Source: Tessaracoccus rhinocerotis (GTDB lineage Bacteria; Actinomycetota; Actinomycetes; Propionibacteriales; Propionibacteriaceae). From it: a DNA stretch of 64,000 nt. Positions 42,576 to 64,000 of this stretch are shown here, in pieces (the first letter of the stretch is position 1; each line of letters begins with the position of its first letter). The notes beneath the pieces were generated by a model. The model made no database searches, was not told the origin of the DNA, and saw only the letters and a list, made by a program, of their open reading frames with translations. Made by a program: the position numbers and the translations under genes. The DNA is taken from assembly GCF_007197885.1 (NCBI RefSeq), contig NZ_VKKG01000004.1, positions 186,001 to 250,000 of the forward strand. Direction: 5' to 3'.

Positions 42576-43433
42576 ATGATGTTCGTGGGGGCCACTCGGT
42601 TCAGCCTGTACCAACCGAACTCGGATCTGTGGTTGGCCTCCAACGGAGCGGTGATCAGTCCGGACGAGTACCTGGCCTTCCTCTACGATGACGCGCGGAT
42701 GGCCCCTCGCTGTGACATCTTCCTGACCTGCACCCTACCGATGCTGGCACTCGCAGCCGAGGGTCATGACGTCCGGCATGTGGTCTCCTTCTCCGACAAC
42801 CTGCCCGAGGTGTACCGCTCCCAGCTGCTGGCGGCCGCCGAGCGGTTCGACTTCGTCGTGCTGGACGAGGTCCCCGTGGGGACACAGTCTCTCGACCTCG
42901 CGCAGTTCGGGAGAGATTTCTCGCGCGAGCTCGGGGTGGAGGGGCAGCCCTACGGCCAGTACCGCCTGGACGACGACGACGTCCTGGCGTGCGACTTCTT
43001 CGACCAGATGGTTCCCCACATCATCCCCGAGCACGTCGGGTGGGTGGTGACGCTGGCCAAGGGCGTCACCGCCATCTACCGGGACGGCAAGTTCTACTTC
43101 GCCAAGGAGGCCATCCTCCCGCTCCACTCGAAAGGTCACCTCGCGGTGGTCCAGTGGTTCGGCGGGGACTTCATCACGCCACCGACGGTTCCGCACAACG
43201 CCTCGGACCGCTACACGCCCGTGGTCCTCGACTCCCGCCGGTTCAGCCACCTCTGGGTCAGGTCGACCATCCAGGACGGTGCCCTCCACCAGCTGGGCGT
43301 GGACGAGCACGAGCAGGCGGTGATGATCCAGAACAAGCTCGGCAGGATGCCGGGGGTCAGCCAGAGCGTCATTGACGAGATCTTCCCGCTGCTGGCCGGC
43401 CGGTTGCTGGTCGAGCGGGTGCCCGGGCTCTGA
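42576..43433 (+). CDS. Putative rhamnosyltransferase-like glycosyltransferase (PF11316-like)
   Basis: This 285-residue cytosolic protein fits the putative rhamnosyl transferase family: an N-terminal VGATRFSLYQPNSDLWLASN, then ILPMLALAAEGHDV-like residues, HVVSFSDNLPEVYRSQLLAAA and the metal-binding YRLDDDDVLACDFFDQM (DDDD cluster, GT-A-like). It may transfer a deoxyhexose, but donor and acceptor are unknown. It opens the surface-polysaccharide region, convergent with the three-gene glycosyltransferase block that follows. The leaderless promoter at 42564 sets the start. Confidence 0.75.
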   Translation: MMFVGATRFSLYQPNSDLWLASNGAVISPDEYLAFLYDDARMAPRCDIFLTCTLPMLALAAEGHDVRHVVSFSDNLPEVYRSQLLAAAERFDFVVLDEVPVGTQSLDLAQFGRDFSRELGVEGQPYGQYRLDDDDVLACDFFDQMVPHIIPEHVGWVVTLAKGVTAIYRDGKFYFAKEAILPLHSKGHLAVVQWFGGDFITPPTVPHNASDRYTPVVLDSRRFSHLWVRSTIQDGALHQLGVDEHEQAVMIQNKLGRMPGVSQSVIDEIFPLLAGRLLVERVPGL

Positions 43434-43458
43434 GACGAACCGCCCTCGGCGGAGGCCG

Positions 43459-45174
43459 TCAGCCCCCGAGGAGGTCCGGGGCGTCGAACTCGTGGTCGCC
43501 CAGCTCGAGGATGAGATCGATGAGTTTCATGGTCGATGCGCGTCGGCTGAAGCGCTCCGCACGGGCCGGGTCCGTGTGGGTCATCGGCTCGTACGTCGCC
43601 AACCAGGCGCTGATGTCCTCGACGGTGTCCTTCACGAAGTGTGCCCCCGCCACGCCGTCCAGCATCGCGGCCAGTGCCGTCCCCTCGATGTTTCCGCGGT
43701 GCAGCAGCAGGAGGTCCAACCCCGCAGCCAGGTAGTCGAAGACCTTGGTCGGGGTCTCGATCCCGCTCTCCGCCATGTAGGCGACTCCGCAGTCCATGCC
43801 GCCGAGGGTCTCCAGCACCTCGCTACGAGGGAGGCGTCCGTAGTTGGTGACGTTCGCCGGGATCTCGGTCCTCAGCGGTGTGCCCATGTGGTGGAACTCG
43901 GCGGCGGTGTGGCTGATGGCCTCTAACAACGGGTCCGGTGGTGTGATCGGGAACAGTTGCCCGGCGTGCCCGAAGCGGACGGGCCCGGCTGCGCGCTGTT
44001 GGGGTCTTGCAGGAGCGGTCACGCGCTCGTCGAACCCGTTCGGGATCACCACGACGTTGGGGTCCTGCTCGCCCGGGACCGCCAGCGCGACGCAGGCATC
44101 GTTCACGACGGTGACCACGTCGGCGGACATGTTCCAGCCCGCCTCGATGTAGGTGGCGCCGGCTCGGGACTCAGGTGTGAAGGCCACCCGCGGGGACATC
44201 GCGAACGGGTCGCGGTAGTCGAGAATCGTGCGCGCGTACCAGTGCCGCGTGGCGAAGTGCGCGAACTCGAACGGCGGGAACGGGTTGCCCGTGATGATCA
44301 CGACGTCGTACTCGTCCTCGCGATTCCGGAAGTAGTCGATGAGGCGCCAGTGCCAGGTGCCGGCCACCTGCCGGCTTGCCGGGTAGCTCTGGGAGGCGGC
44401 CTCGTCCATTACCCCGCGTGCGAAGTAGGCCAGACCACCTGTGCTGCCCACGAGGTTGGCGGGTCCCAGGTCACGGACTTGGTGCACCCGCGCAGGCGCT
44501 TCCGGCCACGGGGTGGCCAGTGCCACGTCCGCGGTGACGCGGCCGTTCGAGAGTGTCTCGAGTTGTTCGAACCAGTAGTTGATGCGCTGCGAACCAACCG
44601 TGGGGGACGGTCCGCCGTAGTATCCGACGAGCAGCACACGGGTGGTGCCCGGGGTGCGACGGGTGGCGGGGACGGGCGGGATCGGTTCGTTCGGAACCAG
44701 TGGCTGGTCCGGGAGCAACCGCACGAGCGCTGGCCAGGCAGCCGTGAACTTGGCTGACAGGTTCTCGTCCGGGATGAAGAAGCCGTCGGCTGCGGTGAAC
44801 AGGGCGACTGCCTGCTGGGTGTTGGCTGGGATGCGTCCGGCGACGAGGGCGCCCATCGGCCAGTCCCGGGTCCTCGAGGCCCACAGTGCCAGTTCGGTAG
44901 CGTAGCTGTTGGCCTCTACCACCGGCATCGGCTTGTGTACGAACCGGGCGAGCCAGTTCAGGACGTAGGTCCACACTGGCAGCGACGCCTCCCCCAGGGA
45001 GTCGTCCGTGATGGACATGGCGGCCTGCGGCATGGAGCAGAGGGTGTCCACGCCGGGCAGCCGCAGGACCTGTGGGTTATCCGGGTGGCGCTCCACGTAG
45101 CGCCAGTGCCGCGAGCGGGCCATGGCCTGGATCTCGGGGTCGTCGGTGAACACGACGGGCGTGTGCAGGCTCAT
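43459..45174 (-). CDS. Family 4-like glycosyltransferase with long N-terminal extension
   Basis: This 571-residue GT-B enzyme lacks a signal peptide or membrane helix. The first 170 residues are an uncharacterised extension (VVFTDDPEIQAMARSRHWRY...). The GT-B part begins TRVLLVGYYGGPSPTVGSQR and includes DVVIITGNPFPPFEFAHF, VVTVVNDACV, VVIPNGFDERV and the donor-site ESGIETPTKVFDYLAAGLDLL (the E-x7-E-like motif with TKVFDYLA). It should add a sugar to a surface glycan; specificity is unknown. Its ATG overlaps the stop of the upstream glycosyltransferase gene (ATGA). Confidence 0.82.
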   Translation of the reverse strand: MSLHTPVVFTDDPEIQAMARSRHWRYVERHPDNPQVLRLPGVDTLCSMPQAAMSITDDSLGEASLPVWTYVLNWLARFVHKPMPVVEANSYATELALWASRTRDWPMGALVAGRIPANTQQAVALFTAADGFFIPDENLSAKFTAAWPALVRLLPDQPLVPNEPIPPVPATRRTPGTTRVLLVGYYGGPSPTVGSQRINYWFEQLETLSNGRVTADVALATPWPEAPARVHQVRDLGPANLVGSTGGLAYFARGVMDEAASQSYPASRQVAGTWHWRLIDYFRNREDEYDVVIITGNPFPPFEFAHFATRHWYARTILDYRDPFAMSPRVAFTPESRAGATYIEAGWNMSADVVTVVNDACVALAVPGEQDPNVVVIPNGFDERVTAPARPQQRAAGPVRFGHAGQLFPITPPDPLLEAISHTAAEFHHMGTPLRTEIPANVTNYGRLPRSEVLETLGGMDCGVAYMAESGIETPTKVFDYLAAGLDLLLLHRGNIEGTALAAMLDGVAGAHFVKDTVEDISAWLATYEPMTHTDPARAERFSRRASTMKLIDLILELGDHEFDAPDLLGG

Positions 45175-46349
45175 GCGGCAAGACTCCTGATGATGGTGAT
45201 CTCGCGATCCACTGTGGCAGCCCGTCCGCACTGCTCCTCGACGCGGGCGGCGGCATTGCGGGACATCACGGGCATCAGTTCGGGGTGGGTGAAGATGTGC
45301 CAGATGGCCTCGGCGAACGCCAGCGGGTCGTCGCCGCGGGGCAAGAGGCTGCAGGTTTCGTCAGTGAACTCCGGGATGGCGGCGACGGGGTTGGTGATGC
45401 CCACCATGCCGGAGGCCATGGCCTCGCCCAGCATCACGCCCTGCGTGTCGAACCGGGTGGGGCACAGGAACACGCCGTGGTCGTAGTGCAGCATCGCCAT
45501 CTCGACGGGGCTGGAGTAGCCCTCCTGGACGCGGACATTGCGCAGCGCCCGCACGCCGGTCACCTCGCGCTGGAAGTGCAGCCCGAAGCCGCGGACCGTG
45601 ATCTCCAACTGGTCGAACCCGCGCCGGGGGGCGAGGATCTCGAGTGCGCGCAGGGCGATGTCGTTGGCGTAGTTGCGGGTGGCGAAGCTGCGCAGCAGCA
45701 GGATCCTGCGGGCCTCCTCGGGCGCCCGCTCGCGGGCCCGGTAGAGGTCGGTGTCGATGTGGTTCGGGATGACGTGGACATTCTCAGCAGTGGCGCCGAC
45801 GTCGAACTCCGAGTAGCCGCGCTGGAACTGGGAGACGAACACCTTCGTGATCGCGGGGTCCTCGAAGATCGGGCGGGCCGCAGCGAAGCGGTCCCTGTTC
45901 ATCTGGTCCAGGCCCGGGCGGCTGCCGGCGATCTTGGTGGGGGAGAAGTTGCACATCAGGCGCCGGTAGTCTCGCACCTCGTAGCCGTGGTACCAGACGG
46001 CCACTCGGGAGCCGCACAGCTCGGTGCGGAGCAGTTCGGCCATGCGCGGCGTCGGGGAGTGCGCCAGCACCGGCACACCCAGTTCCCTCAAGGTGGGTGC
46101 GAGGGCCTCGATGCCGTCGGCTGAGGTGACGGTGATCGGCGTGCTGCCGTCGTGAAGAGTGAACGGGGCGGCGTCGGAGGGGGCGCGGTACTCGTAGACG
46201 TGACCGCTCAGCCCCGCGGCGACGTAGGCCTGCACCCGGGTCCGGATGAACTCCCCACCCGTGCTGGTGCCCCGCGGGTAGCCGGGGGCGAGCACGATGA
46301 AGTCCGGGGACTCGGCCCGCAGTTCCGCCGCCAGATTCCCAGAGGTCAC
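45171..46349 (-). CDS. Family 4 glycosyltransferase
   Basis: This 392-residue GT-B enzyme starts with a Rossmann-like acceptor domain (DFIVLAPGYPRGTSTGGEFIR) and ends with the donor domain: VHVIPNHIDTDLY, ILLLRSFATRNYANDIALRA and the nucleotide-sugar motif FDTQGVMLGEAMASGMVGIT, with the paired Glu region. VAVWYHGYEVRDYRR suggests an acceptor-binding loop. It is coupled to both neighbours: GTG 46349 meets the stop of the coiled-coil gene upstream, and its stop overlaps the next glycosyltransferase. The sugar added is not readable from sequence. Confidence 0.85.
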   Translation of the reverse strand: MTSGNLAAELRAESPDFIVLAPGYPRGTSTGGEFIRTRVQAYVAAGLSGHVYEYRAPSDAAPFTLHDGSTPITVTSADGIEALAPTLRELGVPVLAHSPTPRMAELLRTELCGSRVAVWYHGYEVRDYRRLMCNFSPTKIAGSRPGLDQMNRDRFAAARPIFEDPAITKVFVSQFQRGYSEFDVGATAENVHVIPNHIDTDLYRARERAPEEARRILLLRSFATRNYANDIALRALEILAPRRGFDQLEITVRGFGLHFQREVTGVRALRNVRVQEGYSSPVEMAMLHYDHGVFLCPTRFDTQGVMLGEAMASGMVGITNPVAAIPEFTDETCSLLPRGDDPLAFAEAIWHIFTHPELMPVMSRNAAARVEEQCGRAATVDREITIIRSLAA

Positions 46350-46711: not shown

Positions 46712-46784
46712 TGCTAGCCCCTCCGCTGCGAGTCGTTGGAGGACAGCTTAGCCACAAGCCCGGGCGCAATCGCGCAGGCAGGGG

Positions 46785-50857
<4,073 letters not shown>

Positions 50858-50874: not shown

Positions 50875-52050
50875 ATGGCGCTGGACGTCCTGATGCTCGT
50901 GGCCACCTCGGTGGCCACGGACAGCCGTGTGCTGCGGGAGGCCGCGACCCTGGTCGGCGCCGGCCACCGTGTCCACATAATCGGCCGTTCCGTCCCCGAC
51001 GACTTCGAACCCGCAGTGGGCGTCACCGTCTCCAGCGTCGGTACCTCCTCGGTGTTCCGCGCCGAGGGTCGGCCCACGCTGCAGGGACGCAGGCTCCAGG
51101 CGCCCGTGCGGTTCGCACGCTGGTTCCTGCTGCCGCAGCACCGGCGCTCGTCGTTCGGACGGTGGGCCGACGGTGCACTCGCCGACGCCCGGAACCGCCA
51201 GTTCGACGTGGTTCACGCGCACGACTTCACCGCGCTGGCCGCCGGTGACGAGCTGGCGCGCGAGCGAGGGGTCCCGCTGGTCTACGACTCCCACGAGCTC
51301 TGGTCGGGGATGCCCCGCCAGCACCGCCCCACACCCCTGGCGGACCTGCGGGACCGGCGCGCAGAGGCCGAACTCGGAGGGCGGGCGACGGCGGTCATCA
51401 CCGTTGGTCGGGGGGTTGCGGAGGCGTTGGAGCGCCGGTACCGCTGGGACAACGTATCCGTCGTACGCAACACCTTCCCGCTCCGTGACGAGTTGCCGGA
51501 GCCGCTGGCGGCGCCGACGGGCCTCGTCTACGCCGGCCGGGTGAGCGCCTACCGGGAACTCGAGACGATCGCTGCTGCCAGTCCCGCCCTCGGACTGCCT
51601 GTTACGGCATGCGGACCCGCAGACGAGACCTGGCTCACCGCCTTCGAACCGGGAACCGTGGAGGTCCTGCCGGCCCTGTCGCTGGAAGGCGCCTCGAATC
51701 TGATACGGGAGGCAGGCGCCGCGCTGGTGACCCATTCGAACCGCTGGGAGAACCACCGGCTTGCGCTGCCCAACAAGCTCTTCCACGCCGTGAGCCTGGG
51801 AGTCCCGGTGGTGGCCACCGACGTCGGTGAGCTGGCCCGAACCGTGCGGGAACACAACCTCGGCACGCTCTACACCCCGTCGGACCCCGCCTCGTTGCAG
51901 GATGCCGTCGAACGGCTGTGCAGGGAGTACCCTCAGTTGGTCGCATCCGTGCGAGCGGCTCGGCAGGAGCTCTCCTGGGATGTCGACGCACAACGGCTCG
52001 TCGGACTTTATGCGAAGCTGGGCCGTGAGGAGAGAGAAGGACAAGAGTGA
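50875..52050 (+). CDS. Family 4 glycosyltransferase
   Basis: This 391-residue GT-B enzyme opens DVLMLVATSVATDSRVLREA and has FDVVHAHDFTALAAGDELA and LVYDSHELWSGM in the acceptor domain, then LVYAGRVSAYRELETIA and WENHRLALPNKLFHAVSLGVPVVA in the donor domain. It lies 17 bases after the large glycosyltransferase gene, and its stop overlaps the GTG of the ABC-exporter permease gene, so it belongs to the export operon. The sugar is not identifiable. Confidence 0.87.
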   Translation: MALDVLMLVATSVATDSRVLREAATLVGAGHRVHIIGRSVPDDFEPAVGVTVSSVGTSSVFRAEGRPTLQGRRLQAPVRFARWFLLPQHRRSSFGRWADGALADARNRQFDVVHAHDFTALAAGDELARERGVPLVYDSHELWSGMPRQHRPTPLADLRDRRAEAELGGRATAVITVGRGVAEALERRYRWDNVSVVRNTFPLRDELPEPLAAPTGLVYAGRVSAYRELETIAAASPALGLPVTACGPADETWLTAFEPGTVEVLPALSLEGASNLIREAGAALVTHSNRWENHRLALPNKLFHAVSLGVPVVATDVGELARTVREHNLGTLYTPSDPASLQDAVERLCREYPQLVASVRAARQELSWDVDAQRLVGLYAKLGREEREGQE

Positions 52051-52946
52051 CAACCTCATCGCATGGCCGGGGCGGGGAGCTCGTGGGTGAAACTGATCCC
52101 GTCCCCAAGCAGGAACGCCGGGTCTACAAGCCGCACAAGGCGGGACTGCCGAACCTCCCCAGCTACTTCGCCGAACTCTGGCAGCGCCGGGACTTCGCCA
52201 TGGAGCTCGCCCGCACCAACCTGCGCGCTTCCAACACCAACACCGCGCTGGGCCAGCTCTGGCTGGTGGTGAACCCGCTGCTCCTGGCGGGGGTGTACTT
52301 CCTGCTGGTCTCGGTGCTGCGCGGCGGCACCGGCGGCGACGATGTCTTCCCCAAGATCGCGGCGGGGCTCTTCCTGTTCTTCTACGCCTCGGGAACCATC
52401 CAGTCCTGCGCCACCTCTGTGACCAACGCGGGCAGCCTGATCCTGAACATGAACTTCCCGAAGATGCTGCTCATCTTCTCCAACGTCTACCTGAACTTCC
52501 GACGCTTCATCCCGACGCTGGGCGTCTACCTCGTGATACACATCATCTGGCAGCTGCCGTGGACCTGGCACATGCTGCTGCTCCCCGTCGCGATCCTCCT
52601 GGCGACGCTCGTGTCCATCGGCCTGGGGGCGATAATGGCCACCTCCCAAGTGTACTTCCGTGACACCGCGCAGTTCCTGCCCTACTTCATCCGCATCTGG
52701 CTGTACCTGTCCCCAGTGCTCTACACGGCGGAGGAGTTCCTTGCCGGCCCGATCGGTGCCCGCGTCGGGGAGCTGATCCAGGTAAACCCGATGTTCGCGG
52801 TCCTCGGAATCTGGGCCGACGCACTGCACGGCATCCTCAGCCCTTGGCACTACTTCGCGATCGCCGTGGTCTGGGGCTTGGGCCTGGCCATCGGTGGTGT
52901 CCTGTTCTTCATCTCAAGGGAGCGTGAGTTCGCTGTCCGCCTCTGA
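52047..52946 (+). CDS. ABC-2 polysaccharide exporter permease (Wzm-like)
   Basis: This 299-residue inner-membrane protein of the ABC-2 family has six helices (starting WLVVNPLLLAGVYFLLVSVL) and the family segment AMELARTNLRASNTNTALGQLW just before the first helix. It should export a lipid-linked glycan with the ATPase encoded next. IWLYLSPVLYTAEEF and VNPMFAVLGIWADALHG are typical of Wzm/TagG/RfbD proteins, including the mycobacterial galactan exporter. It overlaps the preceding glycosyltransferase by four bases and the ATPase gene by about 23. Confidence 0.9.
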   Translation: MTTSSHGRGGELVGETDPVPKQERRVYKPHKAGLPNLPSYFAELWQRRDFAMELARTNLRASNTNTALGQLWLVVNPLLLAGVYFLLVSVLRGGTGGDDVFPKIAAGLFLFFYASGTIQSCATSVTNAGSLILNMNFPKMLLIFSNVYLNFRRFIPTLGVYLVIHIIWQLPWTWHMLLLPVAILLATLVSIGLGAIMATSQVYFRDTAQFLPYFIRIWLYLSPVLYTAEEFLAGPIGARVGELIQVNPMFAVLGIWADALHGILSPWHYFAIAVVWGLGLAIGGVLFFISREREFAVRL

Positions 52947-53828: not shown

Positions 53829-54878
53829 GTGGCGGACGCGCGCCTGCACCGGAGCGCCGCCGCGCTGCGCCGCGCCGGTGCCGTCGTCGAGGTGCACGGC
53901 TTGGGGGATGGCACCCAGGGACCCCCCGGCTGCCGGGTCACCACCGCCCCGCACACCGGGAAGGTCGGACGACTGCTGCGGGCGCTCACGTGGCCGTTCC
54001 GGGCCGAGGGCGACGTCCTGGTCACCATTGATCCCGACACCTCTCCGGCGGCGCTGCTGGCCGCTCGACTGCGTCGTCGCCGCTGGGTGGCCGACGTGCA
54101 CGAGGACTACGCAGCCCTCCTCGAGGACCGGGCCTGGGTGCCACGGCCCCTGCTGAAGGTCCTGCAGGTGGCAGTGGGTGCGATGAACGCGCTGATCGGG
54201 TGCGCCGACCTGGTGCTGGTGGCCGACGAGCACGTCCCGCCGCGCCAGGCGCGCAACCGACAGGTGATGCGCAACGAGCCGGACTTCTCACTTCTGCCGT
54301 CGCTGGTGCAGGCGGTGGACGGCTCGCCGTGGCGGGCCGTCTACATCGGGGACAACCGCACCTCGCGCGGGTTGCGCACCATGCTGGAGGCCGTCGCGGC
54401 CACGGCGGGGGACCCCGAGCCGTGGCAGCTGGACCTGGTCGGGCCGGTTTCGGAGTCGGACCGGGAGTGGTTCGAACGGAGATTGGCCGAGCCGGACTGC
54501 GCACTCGTCACCGCACATGGGCGCCGGGACCCGCAGACATCGTGGGAGATCGCAGCGGGCGCGGACGTGGGGTTGTGCCTGTTGGAGAACACGCCGGCCT
54601 TCGCCGAGGCGATGCCGTCAAAGGTTTACGAGTACCTTGCCTGCGGGATGCCGACGGTGGCCACCCCGCTGCCCCGGGTCGTGGAGTTGTTGCACCGCAC
54701 CGGTGCCGGGGTCGTCGTCGATTCGGCCGCCGAGACTACCGCGACGCTGCGCAGGTTCACCACGGATGCGCCGTGGCGCGCGGACCTGCGCGAGGCCGCC
54801 CGGGAGGCGGGTGAAGTGGCCCGGACCCGCCGCAACACCTACGACGAGGCTGCGAAGCGCATCCTCGCGCTCCGGTAG
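53829..54878 (+). CDS. Glycosyltransferase (GT-B), start uncertain
   Basis: At least 349 residues of a GT-B enzyme are open from GTG 53829: GDVLVTIDPDTSPAALLAAR, WVADVHEDYAALLEDR, a central helix, AVYIGDNRTSRGLRTMLEAV and the donor motif MPSKVYEYLACGMPTVATP. The in-frame residues before 53829 (AKVSIVTTGHDVADARLHRS) look like the missing first strand of a GT-B fold, reaching back to a CTG at 53790 just after GGAGGA at the end of the ATPase gene. The true start is therefore probably upstream and non-ATG; 53829 is the conservative choice. It ends the exporter operon. Confidence 0.8.
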   Translation: MADARLHRSAAALRRAGAVVEVHGLGDGTQGPPGCRVTTAPHTGKVGRLLRALTWPFRAEGDVLVTIDPDTSPAALLAARLRRRRWVADVHEDYAALLEDRAWVPRPLLKVLQVAVGAMNALIGCADLVLVADEHVPPRQARNRQVMRNEPDFSLLPSLVQAVDGSPWRAVYIGDNRTSRGLRTMLEAVAATAGDPEPWQLDLVGPVSESDREWFERRLAEPDCALVTAHGRRDPQTSWEIAAGADVGLCLLENTPAFAEAMPSKVYEYLACGMPTVATPLPRVVELLHRTGAGVVVDSAAETTATLRRFTTDAPWRADLREAAREAGEVARTRRNTYDEAAKRILALR

Positions 54879-54912: not shown

Positions 54913-56022
54913 TCATCGGACAGGAGGCCCGGGCGGCCGGGACGACCCCGTCGACGTCGTCCGCCAGTCCTCCCGAATCAGGTCCTCAACCTCGGCGGCT
55001 GTGCTCTCACGGGGAGCACCCGGCGTCCGGTACAGCCACGGCAGCCGATGGCGGGTGCGGTCGTAGAGCCAGATGGAAAGGGCCACCAGCGCGATCACGA
55101 GCAGCGGCACGAGGAACAGTGTGTGACGGGTGCGCAGGGCGGGGAGCGCCGGGAGCGCCAGGGTGACCAGTGTCAGCGCGAAGGGGTGCACCAGGTAGAT
55201 GGGCAGCGTACGTTCGGCGAGGTGGCGCCCAAGCCGGCGGACCCGGTCCCACCGGGAGACGAACTGGCTCAGGCCGAGGACTGCTGTGCAGCCCATGACG
55301 GTCAGCAGCGGGGTCAGGTCCACGCCGTCGGGTGAGTAGGTGAAGCGTGCGATCGGGACGTAGGCGACCACGAGGACGGCCACCACGGCGAGGTGGGTCC
55401 GGGCTGCCAGCACCACCAGGGGACGGACGAAGGCCCCGAGCGCGAAGAACACCAGGAACTGGCAGTACCGGATCAGGGTGAGCAGGGCGTCGTCGGACAG
55501 CGCGCCGGCGTCGAGGGAGCGCGGCAGATCGGACGCGATGACGTAGAGCACCACGCCGATCCCCACCACCAGCCAAGGCGCGCGACGCAGCAGCTTGGCG
55601 GTGACGAAGAAGGCCATCAGCAGGGGCAGGTACCAGTAGAACCCGCCGAAGGTGAGGGTCCAGCTCAGCGCGCGCATCATGAACTCGCCGAAGACCTGCG
55701 GAGCGTAGGCCAGTGCGTAGAACACTGCTATCGCGGTGGTCCACAGGCCGAAGGTCCACAAGTTGTCCAGCAACCGCGGCCGCAGCACCCGCGGCCAGGG
55801 ACGACGCAGCGCCCGCACCGCGAGCACCCCCGAGACCAGGAAGAACAGCGGCATCCGCACCGGCAGGAGCCACGTGCTCAGCACGCCCCAGAACTGCTCG
55901 CTGTACGGGGCGCCGGGGGCGAAGTTCTTCAGCGCGGTGAGCGCCACGTGGTAGACCACCACGAGGACGACGGCCACAGCCTTGGCCGTGTCCGCCCAGT
56001 GCAACCGCTCCCCGTTCGACAC
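54913..56022 (-). CDS. Integral-membrane acyltransferase (acyltransferase 3 family)
   Basis: This 369-residue protein has about ten membrane helices and the acyltransferase-3/OatA-like pattern: the N-terminal LHWADTAKAVAVVLVVVYHVALT with the catalytic His, a MPLFFLVSGVLAVRAL segment and a later LPIYLVHPFAL. It should transfer acetyl or another acyl group to a sugar on the outer face of the membrane, here probably the exported glycan. GTG 56022 is supported by TAGCCT 6 bases upstream (leaderless). The C-terminal tail of about 40 residues is polar. Confidence 0.87.
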   Translation of the reverse strand: MSNGERLHWADTAKAVAVVLVVVYHVALTALKNFAPGAPYSEQFWGVLSTWLLPVRMPLFFLVSGVLAVRALRRPWPRVLRPRLLDNLWTFGLWTTAIAVFYALAYAPQVFGEFMMRALSWTLTFGGFYWYLPLLMAFFVTAKLLRRAPWLVVGIGVVLYVIASDLPRSLDAGALSDDALLTLIRYCQFLVFFALGAFVRPLVVLAARTHLAVVAVLVVAYVPIARFTYSPDGVDLTPLLTVMGCTAVLGLSQFVSRWDRVRRLGRHLAERTLPIYLVHPFALTLVTLALPALPALRTRHTLFLVPLLVIALVALSIWLYDRTRHRLPWLYRTPGAPRESTAAEVEDLIREDWRTTSTGSSRPPGPPVR

Positions 56023-56028
56023 CGCGTC

Positions 56029-56034
56029 AGGCTA
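56029..56034 (-). promoter_or_regulatory. -10 element of a leaderless acyltransferase promoter
   Basis: On the minus strand TAGCCT ends 6 bases before the GTG start of the acyltransferase gene, with no Shine-Dalgarno sequence. Confidence 0.45.
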
Positions 56035-56077
56035 TCAGCCCGACCGTCGGGAACCGCCACGGGGGAGCGGTCAGGGG

Positions 56078-58363
56078 TTACTCCTCGTAGAACTTCTGGA
56101 ACGGGTCGAACAGCGGCAGTTCGTAGCTGTCCAGTTCCGAGGTCTGTGCGGTTCGCATGCGAGCGTTGTCGGCGGACTGGTCGCGCGGGATCTTGCCGTG
56201 TTGCGACGGCGCCATTGCCTCCCAACGAACCGCGTAGTCCCTGAGGAACTTCGCCTGATCCGCGGTGAACCCGGCGGCGATCGCGCGGGTGTAGAGGCTG
56301 CTCAGTTCGGCCACGTGCGTCTCGTGGTACCCGTAGTGGATGTTCCTGTCGGTGTAGATGGGCGGGACCTCCACCGCTGTGGAGGTGCTGCCGAGGCTCA
56401 CCGACTGGATGTTGTGCCACATCCCGTCCATGTAGGCCTGGACGCGGATGCTGCCGCTGCCAGAGACTGTGATGGCGTTGTCGGGGGTGTCGTGGACGTA
56501 GAGGCCGTAGCTGGGGTCGTGGTGTGACCCGAGCTCCTGCGCCTCACCCAGAGAGATGTTGCGGTACTCCACCGTCGTGCCTTCGAGGCCGTAGCTGCCG
56601 GTGAGCAGCTGGACGAGCAGGCCGCAGCCGGGATCGACGTCGGCGGTGAAGCTCGTGGTGTAGGTGGCCCACGTCTGACCCCGGTTCTTCTGGGTCTCGT
56701 GGACCAGACGAGTGGCCTTGCCTTGGCAGTGCTCGTAGACGGCAATCCGGCCGGAGAGCCCGGCGACGCCGTCGGTCAGGGTGAGGCGGGAGTCCATCTG
56801 TAGCGTGAGGTCCGTCCCGGGAGTCACCCTCGAGGCGGGGACCAACTGCTGGATCCCCTGCCAGTTCTCCTTGTCACTGCGGATCTTGACCGTCAACCCG
56901 GAGGAGGAGACCGTGGACTTCGACTGGGGTGCGATCGAGGCCCACTTGTTGACGTGCTGTCCCGACTCGTACACGGCCATGAAAGGCTCGAGCATGCGGC
57001 CGGTCCAGCTGGTCCGGTCCACAAATGGGATGTCAACCTTCTCGCCGTTCAGCCGGTAGCCGGTGATGTTGGCGCTGCTGCCCGGCTCCCTGGTGAATCG
57101 CAGCGGTGCGGGATGGTCCATCCGCACCAGGTCGTAGCTGGTGAGGATGCCGCCCTGGACCGGTACCTCCATCTCCGGGAGCACGTCCTCAAGGCCGGTC
57201 AGGGCCTCGTTGAACAGTTCGCGGGTGAACTCGTCACCGGTGTGCCGCGCCCAGATGTCCAGGCCGATGATGGCCTCCAGGTGGCCGTTGAGCACGGTGG
57301 TGGGTGGGTTCGAGGGGTACTCCTCGAACCAGAGGAAACCGTGGTCCCGGTGGGTGAAGCCACCCTCGGAGAAGGGCACGCGGAAGCTGGCGAGGATCTC
57401 CTCCCCGCGGACCTGCCACTGCTCGTCGCCCGTGACGGTGTGGAGTTCGGCCATGAGCCCGAGGGCCGCGCCCTGGGCCAGCCCTGAGATCCAGCCCGGT
57501 TCCAGGGGCTGGATGACTTCCGCCCCCTCGCTGGGGTCGAAGGGGAACATGTAGGGGAACCAGCGTACCGTCTCGCCCTCATGGGCCTGCGTGGTGGAGC
57601 CGTCCAGCAGGGTGTCGGTCCCGATCTTCAGCAGGCACTCCCACTGTGTGCGGTTGCTCTCCCGGAGGCTGGAGTTGCGCAGTATGTGGCGCGTGAAGTT
57701 CGAGATCGACGTGGGGTTGTACAGGGTGTTCGGCTCGTACGGGGTCTTGACCGCGTGCGGGACGAGCTTGCCGTCCACCTTCGTGATGGCGAAACCGCTG
57801 GGGATCCAGGCGTCGTTGCACGGACCGGGGGGCGGCGTCGTCGGGGTGGGGGCCGGAGCCGGCTTGAACCGGACCATGCTGTTGAAGATCCAGTCGCTGA
57901 CCCAACCGTAGGTGGTGGGGTCCTGTGAGACGACGCCGATGGCCTGCCCGTAGATGTAGCTGCGGCAGCCGCCGCGGCCGGTGGCCGCGGTGTCGCACTC
58001 CGTGTACCACTGGCGACCGTCGGCGGCCGTCCAGGAGCCGTTGGCCCCGAGCGGGTTGCCGACCCATTGGGCACGCGTCAGGCCGGACAAGTAGGTCAGG
58101 TTGTTGAACACCCATCCCTCGGACTGCACGTAGGCGCCGTTCTCGTAGCGGACCTGGGTGGCGAGGATGTTGGTGTGGCACCGCTCGGTCTGCGAGTACG
58201 GCTCGCACCACGTGTGCCACTGGCGGCCGTTGATGGTGTGGTAGCCGGGCGTCGAGTAGACGTCGAACTCGGCCGCCGCATCAGTGCGGGGAAGCGCGAC
58301 CACTGCTGCGACGGCGAGCAGCGCTACCGCCAGCAGAATCCTGAAGTGCCTTGTGATGGACAT
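56078..58363 (-). CDS. Secreted D-glucuronyl C5-epimerase-like protein with duplicated N-terminal Cys module
   Basis: This 761-residue exported protein has a Sec signal peptide (about residues 1-30, ending RTDAAA). Two related modules of about 65 residues follow, each with a GRQW-Y/H-T-x-C ... C pattern (GRQWHTWCEPYSQTERC and GRQWYTECDTAATGRGGC), then a Pro linker (APAPTPTTPPPG). From about residue 220 it resembles the glucuronyl C5-epimerase C-terminal domain: GLAQGAALGLMAELHTVTGD, FLWFEEYPSN and TTVLNGHLEAIIGLDIW. Such enzymes convert D-glucuronic to L-iduronic residues in finished polymers. A beta-rich segment (about 465-640) may bind carbohydrate. AGGAG precedes ATG 58363 by 7 bases. It is divergent from the uronic-acid biosynthesis genes, which suits action on the exported glycan. 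Confidence 0.8.
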   Translation of the reverse strand: MSITRHFRILLAVALLAVAAVVALPRTDAAAEFDVYSTPGYHTINGRQWHTWCEPYSQTERCHTNILATQVRYENGAYVQSEGWVFNNLTYLSGLTRAQWVGNPLGANGSWTAADGRQWYTECDTAATGRGGCRSYIYGQAIGVVSQDPTTYGWVSDWIFNSMVRFKPAPAPTPTTPPPGPCNDAWIPSGFAITKVDGKLVPHAVKTPYEPNTLYNPTSISNFTRHILRNSSLRESNRTQWECLLKIGTDTLLDGSTTQAHEGETVRWFPYMFPFDPSEGAEVIQPLEPGWISGLAQGAALGLMAELHTVTGDEQWQVRGEEILASFRVPFSEGGFTHRDHGFLWFEEYPSNPPTTVLNGHLEAIIGLDIWARHTGDEFTRELFNEALTGLEDVLPEMEVPVQGGILTSYDLVRMDHPAPLRFTREPGSSANITGYRLNGEKVDIPFVDRTSWTGRMLEPFMAVYESGQHVNKWASIAPQSKSTVSSSGLTVKIRSDKENWQGIQQLVPASRVTPGTDLTLQMDSRLTLTDGVAGLSGRIAVYEHCQGKATRLVHETQKNRGQTWATYTTSFTADVDPGCGLLVQLLTGSYGLEGTTVEYRNISLGEAQELGSHHDPSYGLYVHDTPDNAITVSGSGSIRVQAYMDGMWHNIQSVSLGSTSTAVEVPPIYTDRNIHYGYHETHVAELSSLYTRAIAAGFTADQAKFLRDYAVRWEAMAPSQHGKIPRDQSADNARMRTAQTSELDSYELPLFDPFQKFYEE

Positions 58364-58582
58364 GTGGAGCTCCTGGTGATACCGGAGGAAGAGGCATACC
58401 CGGGAAACGGTACCCCCACGGGGCCGCATCTCGTGCATTGGCCCCTTGTGGGGCGGCATTGTCGCTTGGCACAGTGGCGAGGGGCACCACTCGGGGGGAG
58501 CCATCGCGTCCCGCGGGGGTGGTGGGGACCGGGACGTCCGTACGTTGTATGCTCACCCGTAGCAACTTGAAGGGACCAACAC

Positions 58583-59179
58583 ATGGTGCGAATCCAGGAC
58601 AGCGCCGACGTCTCACCCGAGGCAGTCATCGGCGAGGGCTCCTCCGTCTGGCACCTCGCCCAGGTGCGCGAGGGCGCAGTGCTCGGAGAGAACTGCATCG
58701 TCGGGCGCGGCGCCTACGTCGGCACCGGAGTCCGGATGGGCAAGAACTGCAAGCTGCAGAACTACGCCCTCGTCTACGAGCCGGCGGTGCTCGAGGACGG
58801 CGTCTTCGTCGGTCCCGCCGTCGTGTTCACCAACGACTACTTCCCGCGCTCTGTGGACCCCGAAGGCAACCTGAAGCGCGGCGACGACTGGGAGCCGGTA
58901 GGCGTCACTTGCCGCGAGGGTTCCTCCATCGGCGCGCGGGCGGTCTGCATCGCCCCCGTGACCATTGGCCGGTGGGCCATGGTCGCTGCCGGTGCCGTCG
59001 TCACGAAGGACGTTCAAGATTTCGCGCTTGTGGCTGGTGTTCCGGCCAGGCGCATCCGCTGGGTGGGGCGCGCCGGTGTCCCACTCGAGGCCGGTGAGAA
59101 CCCGGGAGAATGGGTCTGCCCCCAGACCGGCGCCAAGTACACCGAGGCAAACGACACACTTTCGGAGGTCCAGCAGTGA
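58583..59179 (+). CDS. wlbB: UDP-2-acetamido-3-amino-glucuronate N-acetyltransferase (WlbB/WbpD-like)
   Basis: This 198-residue left-handed beta-helix acetyltransferase is built of hexapeptide repeats (GAVLGENCIVGRGAYVGTGV, VRMGKNCKLQNYALVYE). VFVGPAVVFTNDYFPR and GASIGAR-type turns with the FTND segment match WlbB/WbpD, which acetylates the 3-amino group of UDP-GlcNAc3NA. The C-terminal tail (WVCPQTGAKYTE) is typical. AAGGGA precedes the ATG. It is first in a tight set with wlbC and wlbA-like genes, supporting the pathway assignment. Alternative: a related PglD-type sugar acetyltransferase. Confidence 0.82.
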   Translation: MVRIQDSADVSPEAVIGEGSSVWHLAQVREGAVLGENCIVGRGAYVGTGVRMGKNCKLQNYALVYEPAVLEDGVFVGPAVVFTNDYFPRSVDPEGNLKRGDDWEPVGVTCREGSSIGARAVCIAPVTIGRWAMVAAGAVVTKDVQDFALVAGVPARRIRWVGRAGVPLEAGENPGEWVCPQTGAKYTEANDTLSEVQQ

Positions 59180-60264
59180 CTGATTTCATCCCCCCGGCCA
59201 AGCCGATCATCGGTGACGAGGAGCGGGAGGCCGTTGATCGCGTCATGCGCTCAGGCATGCTCGCCCAAGGCCCCGAGGTCAAGGCGTTCGAGGAGGAGTT
59301 CTCCGCCCACTTCGGCCTCGGCCGTGCGTGCGTGGCCGTGAACTCCGGCACCTCGGGTCTGCACCTGGGGCTGCTGGCCAACGGGATCGGCGCCGGTGAC
59401 GAGGTCATCGTGCCGTCGTTCACGTTCGCTGCGACGGCCAACTCGGTGGCGCTGACCGGCGCCACGCCGGTGTTCGCCGACATCGCCGCCGATGACTTCA
59501 CCCTGGACCCGGCCTCGGTGGAGGCCTCCATCACCGAGCGCACCAAGGCGATCATGCCGGTGCACCTCTACGGGCACCCGGCCAAGATGGCCCAGCTGCG
59601 CGCCATCGCCGACAAGCACGGGTTGAAGTTGTTCGAGGACGCCGCCCAGGCGCACGGAGCTTCGCTGGACGGCACCCCCGTGGGCGCCTTCGGTGAGTTC
59701 GCGATGTTCTCTCTGTACCCGACCAAGAACATGACCTCGGGTGAGGGCGGCATGGTCTCGGCCGCCGATGACGTGATCGAACGGAACCTGCGGCTGTACC
59801 GCAACCAGGGGATGCTGCAGCAGTACCACAACGAGGTCGTCGGCCTGAACAACCGCATGACCGACATCCACGCCGCGATCGGCCGCGTCCAGCTGACGAA
59901 GGTGGACGCCTGGACCAAGCAGCGCCAGGACAACGCCGCGTTCCTGTCCGCCAACCTCGTCGGTGTCGCGTCGCCGCCGGTGGCCGAGGGTGCGGTGCAC
60001 GTCTACCACCAGTACACCGTGCGGGTTCCGGAGGACCGCGACGGTCTGGCCGCGGCCCTGAAGGAGCAGTACAACGTCGGCTCCGGCATGTTCTACCCGG
60101 TGCCCAACCACCGCCTGAAGCCGTTCCAGGCCGAGGTCGACCTGCCCGAGACCGAGCGCGCCGCGAAGGAGTGCCTGTCGCTGCCGGTGCACCCGTCGGT
60201 GTCCCGGACTGATCTGGAACGCATCGTCGAGGCCGTGAACACGCTGGCGAAGGCAGGTGCGTGA
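59176..60264 (+). CDS. wlbC: UDP-sugar aminotransferase (WlbC/WbpE-like, DegT family)
   Basis: This 362-residue PLP aminotransferase of the DegT/DnrJ/EryC1 family should convert the 3-keto UDP-sugar acid into the 3-amino form. It shows IPPAKPIIGDEEREAVDRVM, VAVNSGTSGLHLGLLA, the PLP lysine K184 in SLYPTKNMTSGEGG and EDAAQAHGAS. The opening and length match WbpE/WlbC. GTG 59176 overlaps the wlbB stop by four bases; the next gene begins 1 base after its stop. Other DegT sugars are possible, but the neighbours point to the diacetamido-glucuronate route. Confidence 0.85.
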   Translation: MTDFIPPAKPIIGDEEREAVDRVMRSGMLAQGPEVKAFEEEFSAHFGLGRACVAVNSGTSGLHLGLLANGIGAGDEVIVPSFTFAATANSVALTGATPVFADIAADDFTLDPASVEASITERTKAIMPVHLYGHPAKMAQLRAIADKHGLKLFEDAAQAHGASLDGTPVGAFGEFAMFSLYPTKNMTSGEGGMVSAADDVIERNLRLYRNQGMLQQYHNEVVGLNNRMTDIHAAIGRVQLTKVDAWTKQRQDNAAFLSANLVGVASPPVAEGAVHVYHQYTVRVPEDRDGLAAALKEQYNVGSGMFYPVPNHRLKPFQAEVDLPETERAAKECLSLPVHPSVSRTDLERIVEAVNTLAKAGA

Positions 60265-60265
60265 G

Positions 60266-61258
60266 ATGGCGAACCTTCGTGCCGGTCTGATCGGTCTGGG
60301 AATGATGGGGCGTCACCACGCCCGCAACCTGCGTGCCATCGATGGTGTCGACTTGGTGGCCGTGGCCGACCCCGGTGGGGACCCGCATGGTGTGGCCGGG
60401 AGCCTGGAGGTGAAGTCCTCGGTGGAGGAGCTGATTGCCGAGGGCGTGGAATACGTGGTGGTCGCCACCCCTACCGCGACCCACGAGGAGGTCGGCACCA
60501 AGCTCGCCGAGGCCGGTGTGCATGCTCTTATCGAGAAGCCCCTGGCGAAGGAGACCAGCTCCGCGAAGCATCTTGCGGAGCTCTTCGCCGCGAAGGGGCT
60601 GGTTGGTGCGGTCGGTCACATCGAGCGCTACAACCCGGCGCTGCAGGAACTGCGCAAACGCCTCGAGCACGGTGACCTGGGTGACCTGTACCAGGTCCAG
60701 ACCCGCCGGCAGGGCCCGTTCCCGGCCCGGATCGCGGACGTTGGTGTGGTCAAGGACCTCGCCTCCCACGACATCGACCTGACGGCGTGGGTGACGCAGC
60801 GCAAGTTCGAGCTGGTCGCTGCCCGCACGATGAGCAAGGCCGGTCGCGAGTACGAGGACATGGTCTCTGCCACCTGCCAGCTCTCCGGTGGGCTGATGAG
60901 TAGTCACCTGGTGAACTGGCTGACCCCCACCAAGGAACGGATCACCATCGTCACCGGTGAGAAGGGCATGTTCGTTGCCGACACGTTGACAGCGGACCTG
61001 ACGTTCTACGCCAACGGCAACGTACAGACCACTTGGGCAGACATCGCCCAGTTCCGGGGCGTGTCCGAGGGCGACGTGACCCGCTTCGCGATCGCCAAGC
61101 CAGAGCCGCTGCGTACCGAGCACGAGCAGTTCCGCGACGCAGTCCTGGGCCGGGACGCAGACATCGTCACGATGGAGCAGGGCGCTCGTGTCGTCGAGGT
61201 CTGCGAAGCCATGATCGAATCCAGCCGCACCGGGCAGTTCGTCGAGCTCTCGAATTGA
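60266..61258 (+). CDS. wlbA: UDP-N-acetylglucosamine 3-dehydrogenase (WlbA/WbpB-like, Gfo/Idh/MocA family)
   Basis: This 330-residue NAD-dependent oxidoreductase should oxidise C3 of UDP-GlcNAcA. The Rossmann motif is GLIGLGMMGRHHARNL, followed by VVVATPTATHEEV, the conserved EKPLAKE and the catalytic-region DLASHDIDL. It fits WlbA/WbpB by its place beside wlbC and wlbB and a UDP-sugar dehydrogenase. ATG 60266 lies just after the wlbC stop; the GTG at 60257 is an alternative. In Pseudomonas and Bordetella the WlbA/WbpB and WlbC/WbpE enzymes work as a coupled pair that recycles NAD with 2-oxoglutarate. Confidence 0.82.
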   Translation: MANLRAGLIGLGMMGRHHARNLRAIDGVDLVAVADPGGDPHGVAGSLEVKSSVEELIAEGVEYVVVATPTATHEEVGTKLAEAGVHALIEKPLAKETSSAKHLAELFAAKGLVGAVGHIERYNPALQELRKRLEHGDLGDLYQVQTRRQGPFPARIADVGVVKDLASHDIDLTAWVTQRKFELVAARTMSKAGREYEDMVSATCQLSGGLMSSHLVNWLTPTKERITIVTGEKGMFVADTLTADLTFYANGNVQTTWADIAQFRGVSEGDVTRFAIAKPEPLRTEHEQFRDAVLGRDADIVTMEQGARVVEVCEAMIESSRTGQFVELSN

Positions 61259-61287
61259 CCTGCTAGGACCCCAAGGTTGGAGGAGCC

Positions 61288-62022
61288 GTGGCGGGAATCT
61301 TCGTCTCGGGCGGGTGCGTCACGCGAGACACCTACGAGCAGATCAAGTCTGAGCACGTCCTGACGGGATACAGCGCCCGACAGTCGCTGATCAGCGCCAA
61401 CTCGAGGCCCACCACCCTGGAGGTCGACCCCCGGGGAACTGGCTTCGAGGTGCGAGCAGTGATGGACGACCTCAACTCTACGCTGTTCGGGAAGATCACG
61501 GAGCAGGCCGGCAGCACCGACCTGTTCGTCATCGACCTCCTGGTGGAGCGGCTCGGGGTGCTGGCCCTGCCCGACGGCAGTTACGTCACCCGGACCCCCA
61601 GCCTCCACAAGAGCGGCGCGATCGGGGACTTGTTCCTGGGGGCACCCTGGATCAAGTTCAACACCCCGGAGCACCGCCGACTCTGGACCGTGGCCGCGAA
61701 CAACCTCGTTGACCGCCTCCGTGAGCTCGGCATGGTGTCCCGGACGCTCTTGGTGGAGACACCCTGGGCCTCCACGTCCCTGACCGGCACGCCGGTCAAG
61801 CCATTCCTCGGGTGGCCGACGGAGGAGGTGGACAGGTGGTACGAGCCGTACTACGAGGTCCTGAGGGGTCTGGGAATCCGGTCCATCCGGATTCCCGAGG
61901 AGCTCGTCCTCTCCGACGACGAGCACAAGTGGGGCGCGTCCCCGTTCCACTACGCGCCCGCCGCCCACGAGTGGCTCGTGGGCCAGTTCAGGTCTGCGCT
62001 GGCTGCGTCCGGGAGCAGGTAG
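61288..62022 (+). CDS. DUF6270-like protein of polysaccharide loci
   Basis: This 244-residue soluble protein starts GIFVSGGCVTRDTYEQIKSE and continues LTGYSARQSLIS, which is the DUF6270 pattern found in capsule and glycan gene clusters. SGGCVTRD resembles the first block (GDS-like) of an SGNH hydrolase with Cys after Gly-Gly, and later FHYAPAAHEWLV could hold the His, so an esterase or acyltransferase-like role on the glycan is possible but unproven. A GTG start follows AGGAG by 4 bases. It sits between wlbA and the UDP-sugar dehydrogenase gene on the same strand. Confidence 0.7.
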   Translation: MAGIFVSGGCVTRDTYEQIKSEHVLTGYSARQSLISANSRPTTLEVDPRGTGFEVRAVMDDLNSTLFGKITEQAGSTDLFVIDLLVERLGVLALPDGSYVTRTPSLHKSGAIGDLFLGAPWIKFNTPEHRRLWTVAANNLVDRLRELGMVSRTLLVETPWASTSLTGTPVKPFLGWPTEEVDRWYEPYYEVLRGLGIRSIRIPEELVLSDDEHKWGASPFHYAPAAHEWLVGQFRSALAASGSR

Positions 62023-62083
62023 GCACTAGTCTTTGTTCGGCGTCGCGCCCAAAGCGCGAGCCTCGTACCGGTAGGAGTTGCTT

Positions 62084-63388
62084 GTGAAGATCACCGTTGT
62101 TGCGTTGGGGAAGATCGGTCTGCCGCTGGCGGTGCAGTTCGCTGCTTCCGGGCACGAGGTCATCGGTGCAGACGTGAACCCGCAGACCGTGGAGCTCGTC
62201 AACGCCGGGACCGAACCGTTCCCCGGCGAGGCGCATCTGGCGGACAAGCTCAAGGCAGCCGTCGACGCGGGACGGCTGCGCGCCACCACCGACACCACCG
62301 CGGCCGTGGCCGAGTCCGAGGCGGTGGTCGTAGTGGTCCCGCTGTTCGTGGATGCCGACAGCCTGCCGGACTTCGGGTGGATGGACGACGCCACCCGCGC
62401 GATCGCGGTCGGACTCAAGCCGGGCACGCTGGTCAGCTACGAGACGACGCTGCCGGTGGGCACCACCCGCAACCGTTGGAAGCCGATGCTGGAGGAGGGC
62501 TCCGGCCTAAGCGAGGGCACCGACTTCCACCTGGTGTTCTCCCCGGAGCGGGTCCTGACCGGCCGGGTGTTCGCAGACCTGCGCAAGTACCCCAAGCTGA
62601 TCGGAGCCCTCTCGCCGGCCGGTGCCGAACGGGCACGCGAGTTCTACGAGGCGGTGCTGCAGTTCGACGAGCGCCCGGACCTGGAGCGCGGCAACGGGGT
62701 GTGGGACCTCGGCTCGGCGGAGGCCTCCGAGATGGCCAAACTGGCAGAGACCACCTACCGCGACGTGAACATCGGGCTGGCCAACCAGTTCGCCCGCTAC
62801 GCCGACACCGCAGGCATCGACGTCTACCAGGTGATCGAGGCCTCGAACTCCCAGCCCTACAGCCACATCCACCGCCCCGGGATCGCCGTGGGCGGGCACT
62901 GCATCCCCGTCTACCCGCGCCTGTACCTGTGGACCGACCCCGACGCGTCGGTCGTGGATACCGCCCGCAAGGCCAACGCCGCCATGCCCGCCTACGCAGT
63001 CCAGCTCGCCGCCGACGCGGCCGGCTCCCTGGAGGGCAAGCGCGTCGCCGTGCTGGGTGCCTCCTACCGGGGCGGGGTGAAGGAGACCGCGTTCTCCGGC
63101 GTGTTCCCCGTGGTGACTGCCCTGACGGAGCAGGGCGCCCACGTCGCGGTCCACGACGAGATGTTCGACGACGAGGAGCTGACCAAGCTCGGCTTCACCC
63201 CCTACCACCTGGGCCAGGACGCCGACGTCGCCATCGTTCAGACCGACCACGCCTCCTACCGTGACCTCACCGCCGCCGACCTCCCCGGCGTAGGCACGAT
63301 CGTCGACGGCCGCCGCATCCTCGACCCGGCCGCGTTCCCCGACACCAGGATCCTCGTCATCGGCCAGGGGGAGCCACAGCGTGACTGA
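62084..63388 (+). CDS. wbpA: UDP-sugar 6-dehydrogenase (UDP-GlcNAc/UDP-glucose dehydrogenase family, WbpA-like)
   Basis: This 434-residue NAD-dependent enzyme oxidises C6 of a UDP-sugar to the uronic acid. It has the Rossmann start VVALGKIGLPLAVQFAASGH, the central VFSPERVLTGRVFADL, the hinge Lys/Asn region (AKLAETTYRDVNIGLANQF) and the active-site Cys273 in VGGHCIPVYP, then the UDP-binding domain (VAVLGASYRGGVKETAFS). With WlbA, WlbC and WlbB it is expected to use UDP-GlcNAc. GTG 62084 is preferred over TTG 62078 because AGGAG then lies 6 bases upstream. Its end overlaps the next glycosyltransferase gene by 8 bases. Confidence 0.88.
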   Translation: MKITVVALGKIGLPLAVQFAASGHEVIGADVNPQTVELVNAGTEPFPGEAHLADKLKAAVDAGRLRATTDTTAAVAESEAVVVVVPLFVDADSLPDFGWMDDATRAIAVGLKPGTLVSYETTLPVGTTRNRWKPMLEEGSGLSEGTDFHLVFSPERVLTGRVFADLRKYPKLIGALSPAGAERAREFYEAVLQFDERPDLERGNGVWDLGSAEASEMAKLAETTYRDVNIGLANQFARYADTAGIDVYQVIEASNSQPYSHIHRPGIAVGGHCIPVYPRLYLWTDPDASVVDTARKANAAMPAYAVQLAADAAGSLEGKRVAVLGASYRGGVKETAFSGVFPVVTALTEQGAHVAVHDEMFDDEELTKLGFTPYHLGQDADVAIVQTDHASYRDLTAADLPGVGTIVDGRRILDPAAFPDTRILVIGQGEPQRD

Positions 63389-64000
63389 TACTCCACGCGT
63401 CGTCCTGTTCCGGCACGCCCCGGTGGATATCGACTCCAGGGTCAAGAAGTTCGCCATCACGCTGCAACGCGCCGGCTACGAGCCCGTCGTGATCTCGGTG
63501 GAACCCCTCGGCGGGACCGCCGGGGAGTTCGTGCTCGGCGACGGGATCCGCGTGATCCGCGTCCCGCTGCAGAACGCCCCCCAGAAGACGGTTCGACTGA
63601 GGCGGGACAACCTGGAGGCCAGACGGGCGCTCCACCGTCGGCGCGCGGCGTACCGGGAGCGCGTCAGGGGCGCGGACGCCGCATCGGCGAAGGCCGGTGC
63701 CAAATGGGCCCTGACCACGGCGAAGGTGGCTGCGCTCAAGGCTGCCAGCGTTGCCTCCGAGGCGTCGTTCCGGATCCAGCGTGCCGTGGCGCACCGTGCC
63801 AGCCTGCGGGACCCGTTCGTCGCGGCTGCAGTGGAACGCAACCTGCCCGTGGTCTCCGACGTGACCCACACCCTGACCGACCTGCTGGTGGAACTGAAGC
63901 CTGACGTGCTCCATGCCCACCACCCACAGGTGCTGCTGGCCACGCGCGAGGCGCTGAAGCAGTTGCGTGCCCAAGGTGTCGACGTGAAGTTCTACTACGA
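63381..64000 (+). CDS. Glycosyltransferase (GT-B family, N-terminal part, runs off the window)
   Basis: The 206 visible residues begin the acceptor domain of a GT4-like enzyme: PRVVLFRHAPVDIDSRVKKF, AGYEPVVISVEPLGGT, a long basic/Ala-rich helical insertion (about 70-145, RRALHRRRAAYRERVRG) and LVELKPDVLHAHHPQVLLA, the usual D-V-x-H-x-H segment. GTG 63381 overlaps the dehydrogenase gene by 8 bases, so it is translated with the uronic-acid pathway genes and likely uses their product. The donor domain is outside the window. Confidence 0.82.
   Translation, partial: MTDTPRVVLFRHAPVDIDSRVKKFAITLQRAGYEPVVISVEPLGGTAGEFVLGDGIRVIRVPLQNAPQKTVRLRRDNLEARRALHRRRAAYRERVRGADAASAKAGAKWALTTAKVAALKAASVASEASFRIQRAVAHRASLRDPFVAAAVERNLPVVSDVTHTLTDLLVELKPDVLHAHHPQVLLATREALKQLRAQGVDVKFYY

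Follow-up and report, generated by a model that had tools for sequence, protein, structure and literature searches.

A C5-epimerase-like protein bearing a recurrent surface module in a predicted diacetamido-uronate glycan locus of Tessaracoccus rhinocerotis

The window analysed here, a stretch of 64,000 nucleotides from Tessaracoccus rhinocerotis (G000:C34:186001-250000; genome of 3.55 Mb in 49 contigs), contains a surface-glycan locus that encodes a 761-residue C5-epimerase-like protein. Polymer-level epimerization of hexuronates is called rare in the available text of PMC13308652, which names heparan and dermatan sulfate, alginate and, as a further case, an archaeal N-glycan precursor; the same text describes one tested bacterial enzyme of family PF06662, from Bermanella RED65. 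The Tessaracoccus protein shares its domain family, five catalytic residues and a helical fold with the animal D-glucuronyl C5-epimerase GLCE (PDB 6hzz, 4pw2). It differs from GLCE in that its catalytic domain is split by a β-sandwich of ~250 residues, in its N-terminal surface module and in its substrate, which is probably a di-N-acetylated uronate. Structure and residues were compared with GLCE only. A possible manno-to-gulo conversion at the polymer level would be held in common with the alginate mannuronan C5-epimerases AlgE and AlgG, but the AlgE/AlgG family profile gave no match in the protein, in which PF06662 is the sole Pfam family at E ≤ 0.001.

The Streptomyces utr teichuronic-acid loci encode a dehydrogenase, an oxidase, an aminotransferase and an acetyltransferase, the same enzyme classes as found here (PMC13274773, available text). 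In that text, S. griseus combines a polymer of 2,3-diacetamido-2,3-dideoxymannuronic acid (ManNAc3NAcA) with the 2-epimerase gene utrH, and S. antibioticus, which is without utrH, utrE and utrF, has a chain of the corresponding glucuronic acid (GlcNAc3NAcA); this parallels the Tessaracoccus genomes with and without the 2-epimerase WbpI. What sets the present locus apart from the utr loci is its Wzm/Wzt exporter and its PF06662 protein; the main text of PMC13274773 contains neither 'Wzm' nor 'ABC transporter', and the epimerases named in its available passages are 2- and 4-epimerases. Many secreted proteins with a common module, together with a wall-polymer gene set, are likewise found in the SLH/CsaB and Clostridioides difficile CWB2/PSII systems (PMC6030368, PMC5817068, both in excerpt). 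In Tessaracoccus, 63 of 64 open reading frames carry one module each rather than three, and hypothetically epimerization would take the place of the pyruvylation of SLH/CsaB systems. Cutibacterium (Propionibacterium) acnes is a related bacterium. Its wall polysaccharide contains 2,3-diamino-2,3-dideoxyglucuronic acid, the same sugar class as predicted here, and no epimerase is mentioned in the available part of PMC3848858.

Among the open-licence literature matches listed, no account was recognized of the module or of an epimerized diacetamido polymer, and none reported a tested C5-epimerase activity in such an organism. The family itself is not new to the phylum: PF06662 is found in 31 of 396 Actinomycetota genomes (27 of 237 genera), and the idea that it is unusual there was rejected.

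The C5-epimerase-like protein and its pathway genes

Gene content and protein families lead us to conclude that a teichuronic-acid-like polymer is probably produced and exported by the locus, and that the secreted-looking protein would edit this polymer at C5 on the cell surface. With comparable strength, they favour assigning the 761-residue protein to the GLCE family, as an enzyme that acts at the surface and is linked to a diacetamido-uronate polymer. The features that bear on these conclusions are:

56078..58363, minus strand: C5-epimerase-like protein, 761 residues (PF06662)
57860..58264, minus strand: surface module, epimerase residues 34-168, recurring at 66 places in the genome
56372..57115, minus strand: β-sandwich insert, residues ~417-664, with a CBM16-like core at 451-608, between Tyr410 and Tyr679
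56207..56338, minus strand: C-terminal catalytic segment, residues ~676-719, which the insert has shifted and whose YHETH contains Tyr679
58583..59179, plus strand: WlbB/WbpD-like N-acetyltransferase (PDB 3mqg, E 8e-41)
59110..60264, plus strand: WlbC/WbpE-like aminotransferase (DegT, E 4e-120; PDB WbpE 3nyu, E 6e-61)
60257..61258, plus strand: WlbA/WbpB-like 3-dehydrogenase (NF040723, 200 bits, under its cut-off of 450)
62078..63388, plus strand: WbpA-like UDP-sugar 6-dehydrogenase (TIGR03026, 298 bits against a cut-off of 190)
64881..65942, minus strand, just past the window (G000:C34:250881-251942): WbpI 2-epimerase, best solved relative a UDP-GlcNAc3NAcA 2-epimerase
52047..52946, plus strand: Wzm-like ABC permease (open frame and profile matches)
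52894..53793, plus strand: Wzt-like ABC ATPase, short form, 299 residues, matching solely ABC/AAA

The epimerase open frame spans 56078-58504 on the minus strand, and the ATG at 58363 was taken as the start because it gives a signal-peptide-like N-terminus and agrees with relatives. PF06662 (C5-epim_C) matched with an E-value of 6.7e-26 and 91.4 bits against a cut-off of 23.3, which together with the signal-peptide-like start bears out the predicted signal-peptide-bearing C5-epimerase-like protein. GLCE catalytic residues E499, Y500, N510, Y560 and Y578 correspond to E348, Y349, N359, Y410 and Y679, which are invariant across the 12 rows of alignment A1; this covers 12 of the 15 places in the genus, with G013 (unknown bases), G008 (broken frames) and G108 omitted. 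All five residues, whose loss the original prediction had named as evidence against an epimerase, are thus intact. The fold comparison that it had proposed found the GLCE fold in the catalytic domain: the best matches were GLCE structures 6hzz and 4pw2 (VIA-align). As regards the N-terminal β-hairpin dimerization domain and the central β-sandwich of GLCE, the superposition begins at model residue 186 and chain residue 181.

In contrast to GLCE, the catalytic domain is interrupted, with the CBM-like insert separating Tyr410 from Tyr679. Because catalytic residues and fold are kept, we treat the split domain as a variant of the GLCE type. Among the loci measured the insert is confined to the genus: the motif pair is spaced by 330-414 residues in 12 of 15 genus loci and by 72-81 residues in 6 of 28 loci outside it, the other 3 and 22, respectively, being unmatched by the pattern. 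The value of 333 for L010 is slightly short, as it ends at an earlier chance match. A scan of genome contigs with the single epimerase sequence returned no relative; relatives did emerge in an alignment-based scan. PF06662 genes also occur in a different family of the same order, where their neighbours include an oxidoreductase with 27-29% likeness to WlbA and a gene of 336-337 residues (L044, L046-L050).

WbpI matched a UDP-GlcNAc3NAcA 2-epimerase in the PDB with an E-value of 2e-98, followed by the UDP-N-acetylglucosamine (UDP-GlcNAc) 2-epimerase 4neq at 2e-66. With WbpI located beyond the glycosyltransferase at the window end, all five enzyme classes for UDP-ManNAc3NAcA (WbpABEDI / WlbA-D) are present. 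The route to a UDP-diacetamido-uronic acid that had been proposed for WbpA-WlbA-WlbC-WlbB therefore stands as to enzyme classes but probably not as to the glucuronate form, since the adjoining WbpI makes ManNAc3NAcA the probable sugar. By the same argument a guluronate-type product is likelier here than the proposed iduronate-type one, which is an option for five related genomes without WbpI, where a GlcNAc3NAcA residue would give it.

Judged from these families, WbpA, B, E and D would convert UDP-GlcNAc to UDP-GlcNAc3NAcA and WbpI would convert this to UDP-ManNAc3NAcA; cytosolic glycosyltransferases would build the chain, and Wzm/Wzt would export it. The 761-residue protein would be exported by its signal peptide; its N-terminal module may anchor it to the wall, and its CBM-like insert may keep the polymer chain close to the active site. 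A GLCE-type active site would then take off and return the C5 proton of a polymer uronate, with 2,3-diacetamido-L-guluronate as the likeliest product residue, replaced by its L-ido counterpart where relatives have no WbpI. If so, the range of reactions known for the GLCE family would grow to include an extracellular actinobacterial enzyme that acts on N-acetylated uronates.

The surface module and its co-occurrence with the epimerase

The 135-residue module is present at 66 sites in the T. rhinocerotis genome (L005:3631-5805, L165-L204). Among 64 distinct open reading frames read, it lies at most 12 residues from the stop in 45, near the N-terminus in 18 and elsewhere in one; a single frame, L204:3893-5464 on the minus strand, contains a tandem pair. 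Many of these frames have a signal-peptide-like start and several encode glycoside hydrolases, and the commonest Pfam family among 56 module proteins is present in just eight. Pfam left the module unmatched both in the epimerase and in L029:11347-12117, SLH, CWB2 and other known wall-binding Pfam profiles did not match it, NCBIfam and PDB-sequence searches were likewise negative, and fold comparison gave no clear match. It was not found in the plasmids and phages searched. The basis for taking it as restricted to the genus is a survey of 293 genomes in the order, together with the best 80 of the 177 stretches confirmed in the alignment-based epimerase scan; those 80 come from records named Tessaracoccus, Arachnia, Propionibacteriaceae or Propionibacterium. 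One module protein, an M15 peptidase (L005:3631-5805, minus strand), is encoded a short gap from WbpI; G026 (L053) has similar module proteins at the locus end, and G022 (L052) has them close to WbpI. In G022, a leucine-rich-repeat protein with an epimerase-like (module) part (L039:11130-12446, minus strand) lies beside the epimerase in the glycan locus.

Thirteen of 39 genus genomes contain the PF06662 epimerase. The module was found in many copies in 14 genomes (12 in a first survey; G008 and G015 in a second) and as a single copy in G019, and none was found in 24; the first survey scored 14 candidates per genome, so that its copy numbers are lower bounds and its zeros less sure, and full scoring was applied to eight further genomes of the genus and, once more, to G019. 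The 14 many-copy genomes include all 13 that have the epimerase, and the other 25 genomes have no epimerase. Wzm with at least 60% identity occurs in 12 of the 13 epimerase genomes and in none of the 26 others. WbpI with at least 79% identity occurs in eight genomes, all with the epimerase; matches of 58-67% were found in four more without it.

The genomes with the epimerase do not form a single clade: an rpoB tree was built from 31 genomes, including 10 of the 13, and on it the epimerase requires 6 changes, of which at least 5 are forced by well-supported branches. An ArgG tree also gives 6 changes, at least 3 of them forced, but argG is a neighbour of the locus and could be transferred together with it. 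In four chosen close contrasts (G022/G023, G000 group/G007, G020+G011/G028 and G108/G015), Wzm agrees with the epimerase in all four and the module in three; G003 has no clear contrast partner on the rpoB tree. The epimerase is distant from the glycan genes in G003, G020 and G031 and on a separate contig in G029 and G108, so linkage alone is insufficient to explain the co-occurrence.

Alternative substrates, reactions and ligands

Several findings weigh against C5 editing of a diacetamido-uronate polymer. Several pathway enzymes score under NCBIfam equivalog cut-offs, and the second aligned piece of an alignment used in placing the catalytic residues is weak alone (i-Evalue 8 and 0.68). Lyases and epimerases have proton abstraction in common, and the reaction may end in chain cleavage. 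That shared step, and the glycoside hydrolases among the module partners, would fit a polysaccharide lyase or polymer turnover instead of epimerization; we consider this very improbable given the five GLCE residues kept and the GLCE structures as best folds. A homologue of the UDP-glucose dehydrogenase Ugd is encoded elsewhere in the genome (contig C47; 637 bits, model cut-off 757), so glucuronate could be the substrate, and the enzyme might convert plain glucuronate to iduronate in another surface glycan. Tested family members do act on glucuronic acid (PMC13308652, available text), but no Ugd was found in the glycan locus, and this locus and those of relatives contain N-acetylated uronate genes, which makes the plain-glucuronate substrate unlikely. 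WbpI was not found in 5 of the 13 genomes with the epimerase, and one sugar therefore does not suit the whole set. For these five, N-acetylmannosaminuronic acid made by WecB and WecC encoded near the epimerase is a possible, if doubtful, substrate: WecC scores above cut-off in G026, G011 and G025 and WecB in G011, WecC immediately follows the epimerase in L030 and L035, and the epimerases of G026, G011 and G025 form one clade (100/100). A simple replacement of WbpI is weakened by the Wbp-type genes that these genomes keep (A, B, E and D in G026 and G025, as in G008; A, B and E in G011; B and E within the part of G003 that was read), and WecB-type genes also occur in G108, G022 and G032, all with WbpI.

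The preferred reading of an edited diacetamido-uronate polymer can be extended, tentatively and with the odds leaning against it, to a view in which the module binds the epimerized polymer and the epimerase writes an attachment mark, as CsaB does by pyruvylation for SLH, a precedent known from the excerpts cited above. The 66 module sites, the nesting of epimerase genomes within the many-copy genomes, the Wzm distribution, the scatter on the rpoB tree and the module proteins that several genomes encode close to WbpI or next to the epimerase point in this direction. Three genomes depart from the pattern: G015 has 17 module matches but neither epimerase nor such a Wzm (400 contigs), Wzm was not found in the epimerase genome G013 (210 contigs), and G019 has one module with neither. 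Moreover, 16 of 500 label shuffles gave as few as 6 changes, so relatedness accounts for part of the pattern. Co-occurrence is also not binding, and peptidoglycan, teichoic acid or the unedited polymer could be bound instead. It is on the unlikely side that we are dealing with a surface-display system of a new kind, in which an N-acetylated polyuronate, once exported, would be made by a module-bearing, insert-split C5-epimerase into the receptor of a well-conserved 135-residue module, mostly terminal on ~60 predicted surface proteins of one 3.5-Mb genome. By analogy it would parallel SLH/CsaB, with C5-epimerization. Binding of the module to the edited polymer would account for the display of dozens of secreted proteins in part of the genus.

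Other genes of the locus and its conservation in relatives

The remaining genes of the locus are:

42519..43433, plus strand: putative rhamnosyltransferase (Pfam PF11316)
43459..45231, minus strand: protein beside the glycosyltransferase at 45171, with counterparts in some relatives at 32-42% identity
45171..46349, minus strand: glycosyltransferase (Pfam support)
46785..48440, minus strand: argininosuccinate synthase argG, housekeeping (NF003779, 833 bits against a cut-off of 657)
48317..50857, plus strand: large glycosyltransferase, 846-residue frame (Pfam support)
50875..52050, plus strand: glycosyltransferase, family 4 type (Pfam support)
53829..54878, plus strand: glycosyltransferase (Pfam support)
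54913..56022, minus strand: membrane acyltransferase-3 (Pfam PF01757)
61288..62022, plus strand: DUF6270 protein (profile match), between WlbA and WbpA
63381..64000, plus strand: glycosyltransferase crossing the window end; its Pfam match is strong only if read beyond that end

Open frames and profile matches establish that the predicted genes are present, the short-form Wzm/Wzt pair and the membrane acyltransferase included, and the reading of them as one surface-glycan system is supported. Of 'seven or more' predicted glycosyltransferases, six are certain from Pfam (42519, 45171, 48317, 50875, 53829 and 63381); beyond these there are only possible extras, namely frame 43459-45231, for which the Pfam scan gave no match, and a weak additional second glycosyltransferase match in 48317. 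The actinobacterial galactan exporter models NF050109 and NF050108 scored 59/380 and 192/400 bits, under their equivalog cut-offs. The original prediction had not included argG, which lies inside its interval and adjoins glycan genes in relatives too, nor DUF6270, WbpI, the split catalytic domain or the genome-wide module.

Comparison across related genomes, which it had suggested, found the run GT_48317, GT_50875, Wzm, Wzt, GT_53829, Wbp genes and GT_382 near argG (nearly) complete in 12 of the 13 epimerase genomes. G013 is the exception, two contigs share the run in G029, and in G008 it has broken frames; in G003, argG is ~7 kb off and the compared stretch ends after WbpB. GT_48317 with at least 55% identity lies in the 1.5-kb argG flanks of 11 of 12 epimerase genomes (not G003), and the same flanks in 18 genomes without the epimerase gave a single GT_48317 match, at 34%. 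The many broken frames of G008 (L041, L056) make its genes hard to judge. The DUF6270 gene was the best match of no gene in the relatives' stretches compared, and Rfam and tRNA scans of the whole window were empty. A PGAP1-like hydrolase is encoded at 40532-42181 (minus strand), and both G108 (L272) and G008 (L056) have relatives of it, at 39-44% identity, within their glycan stretches.
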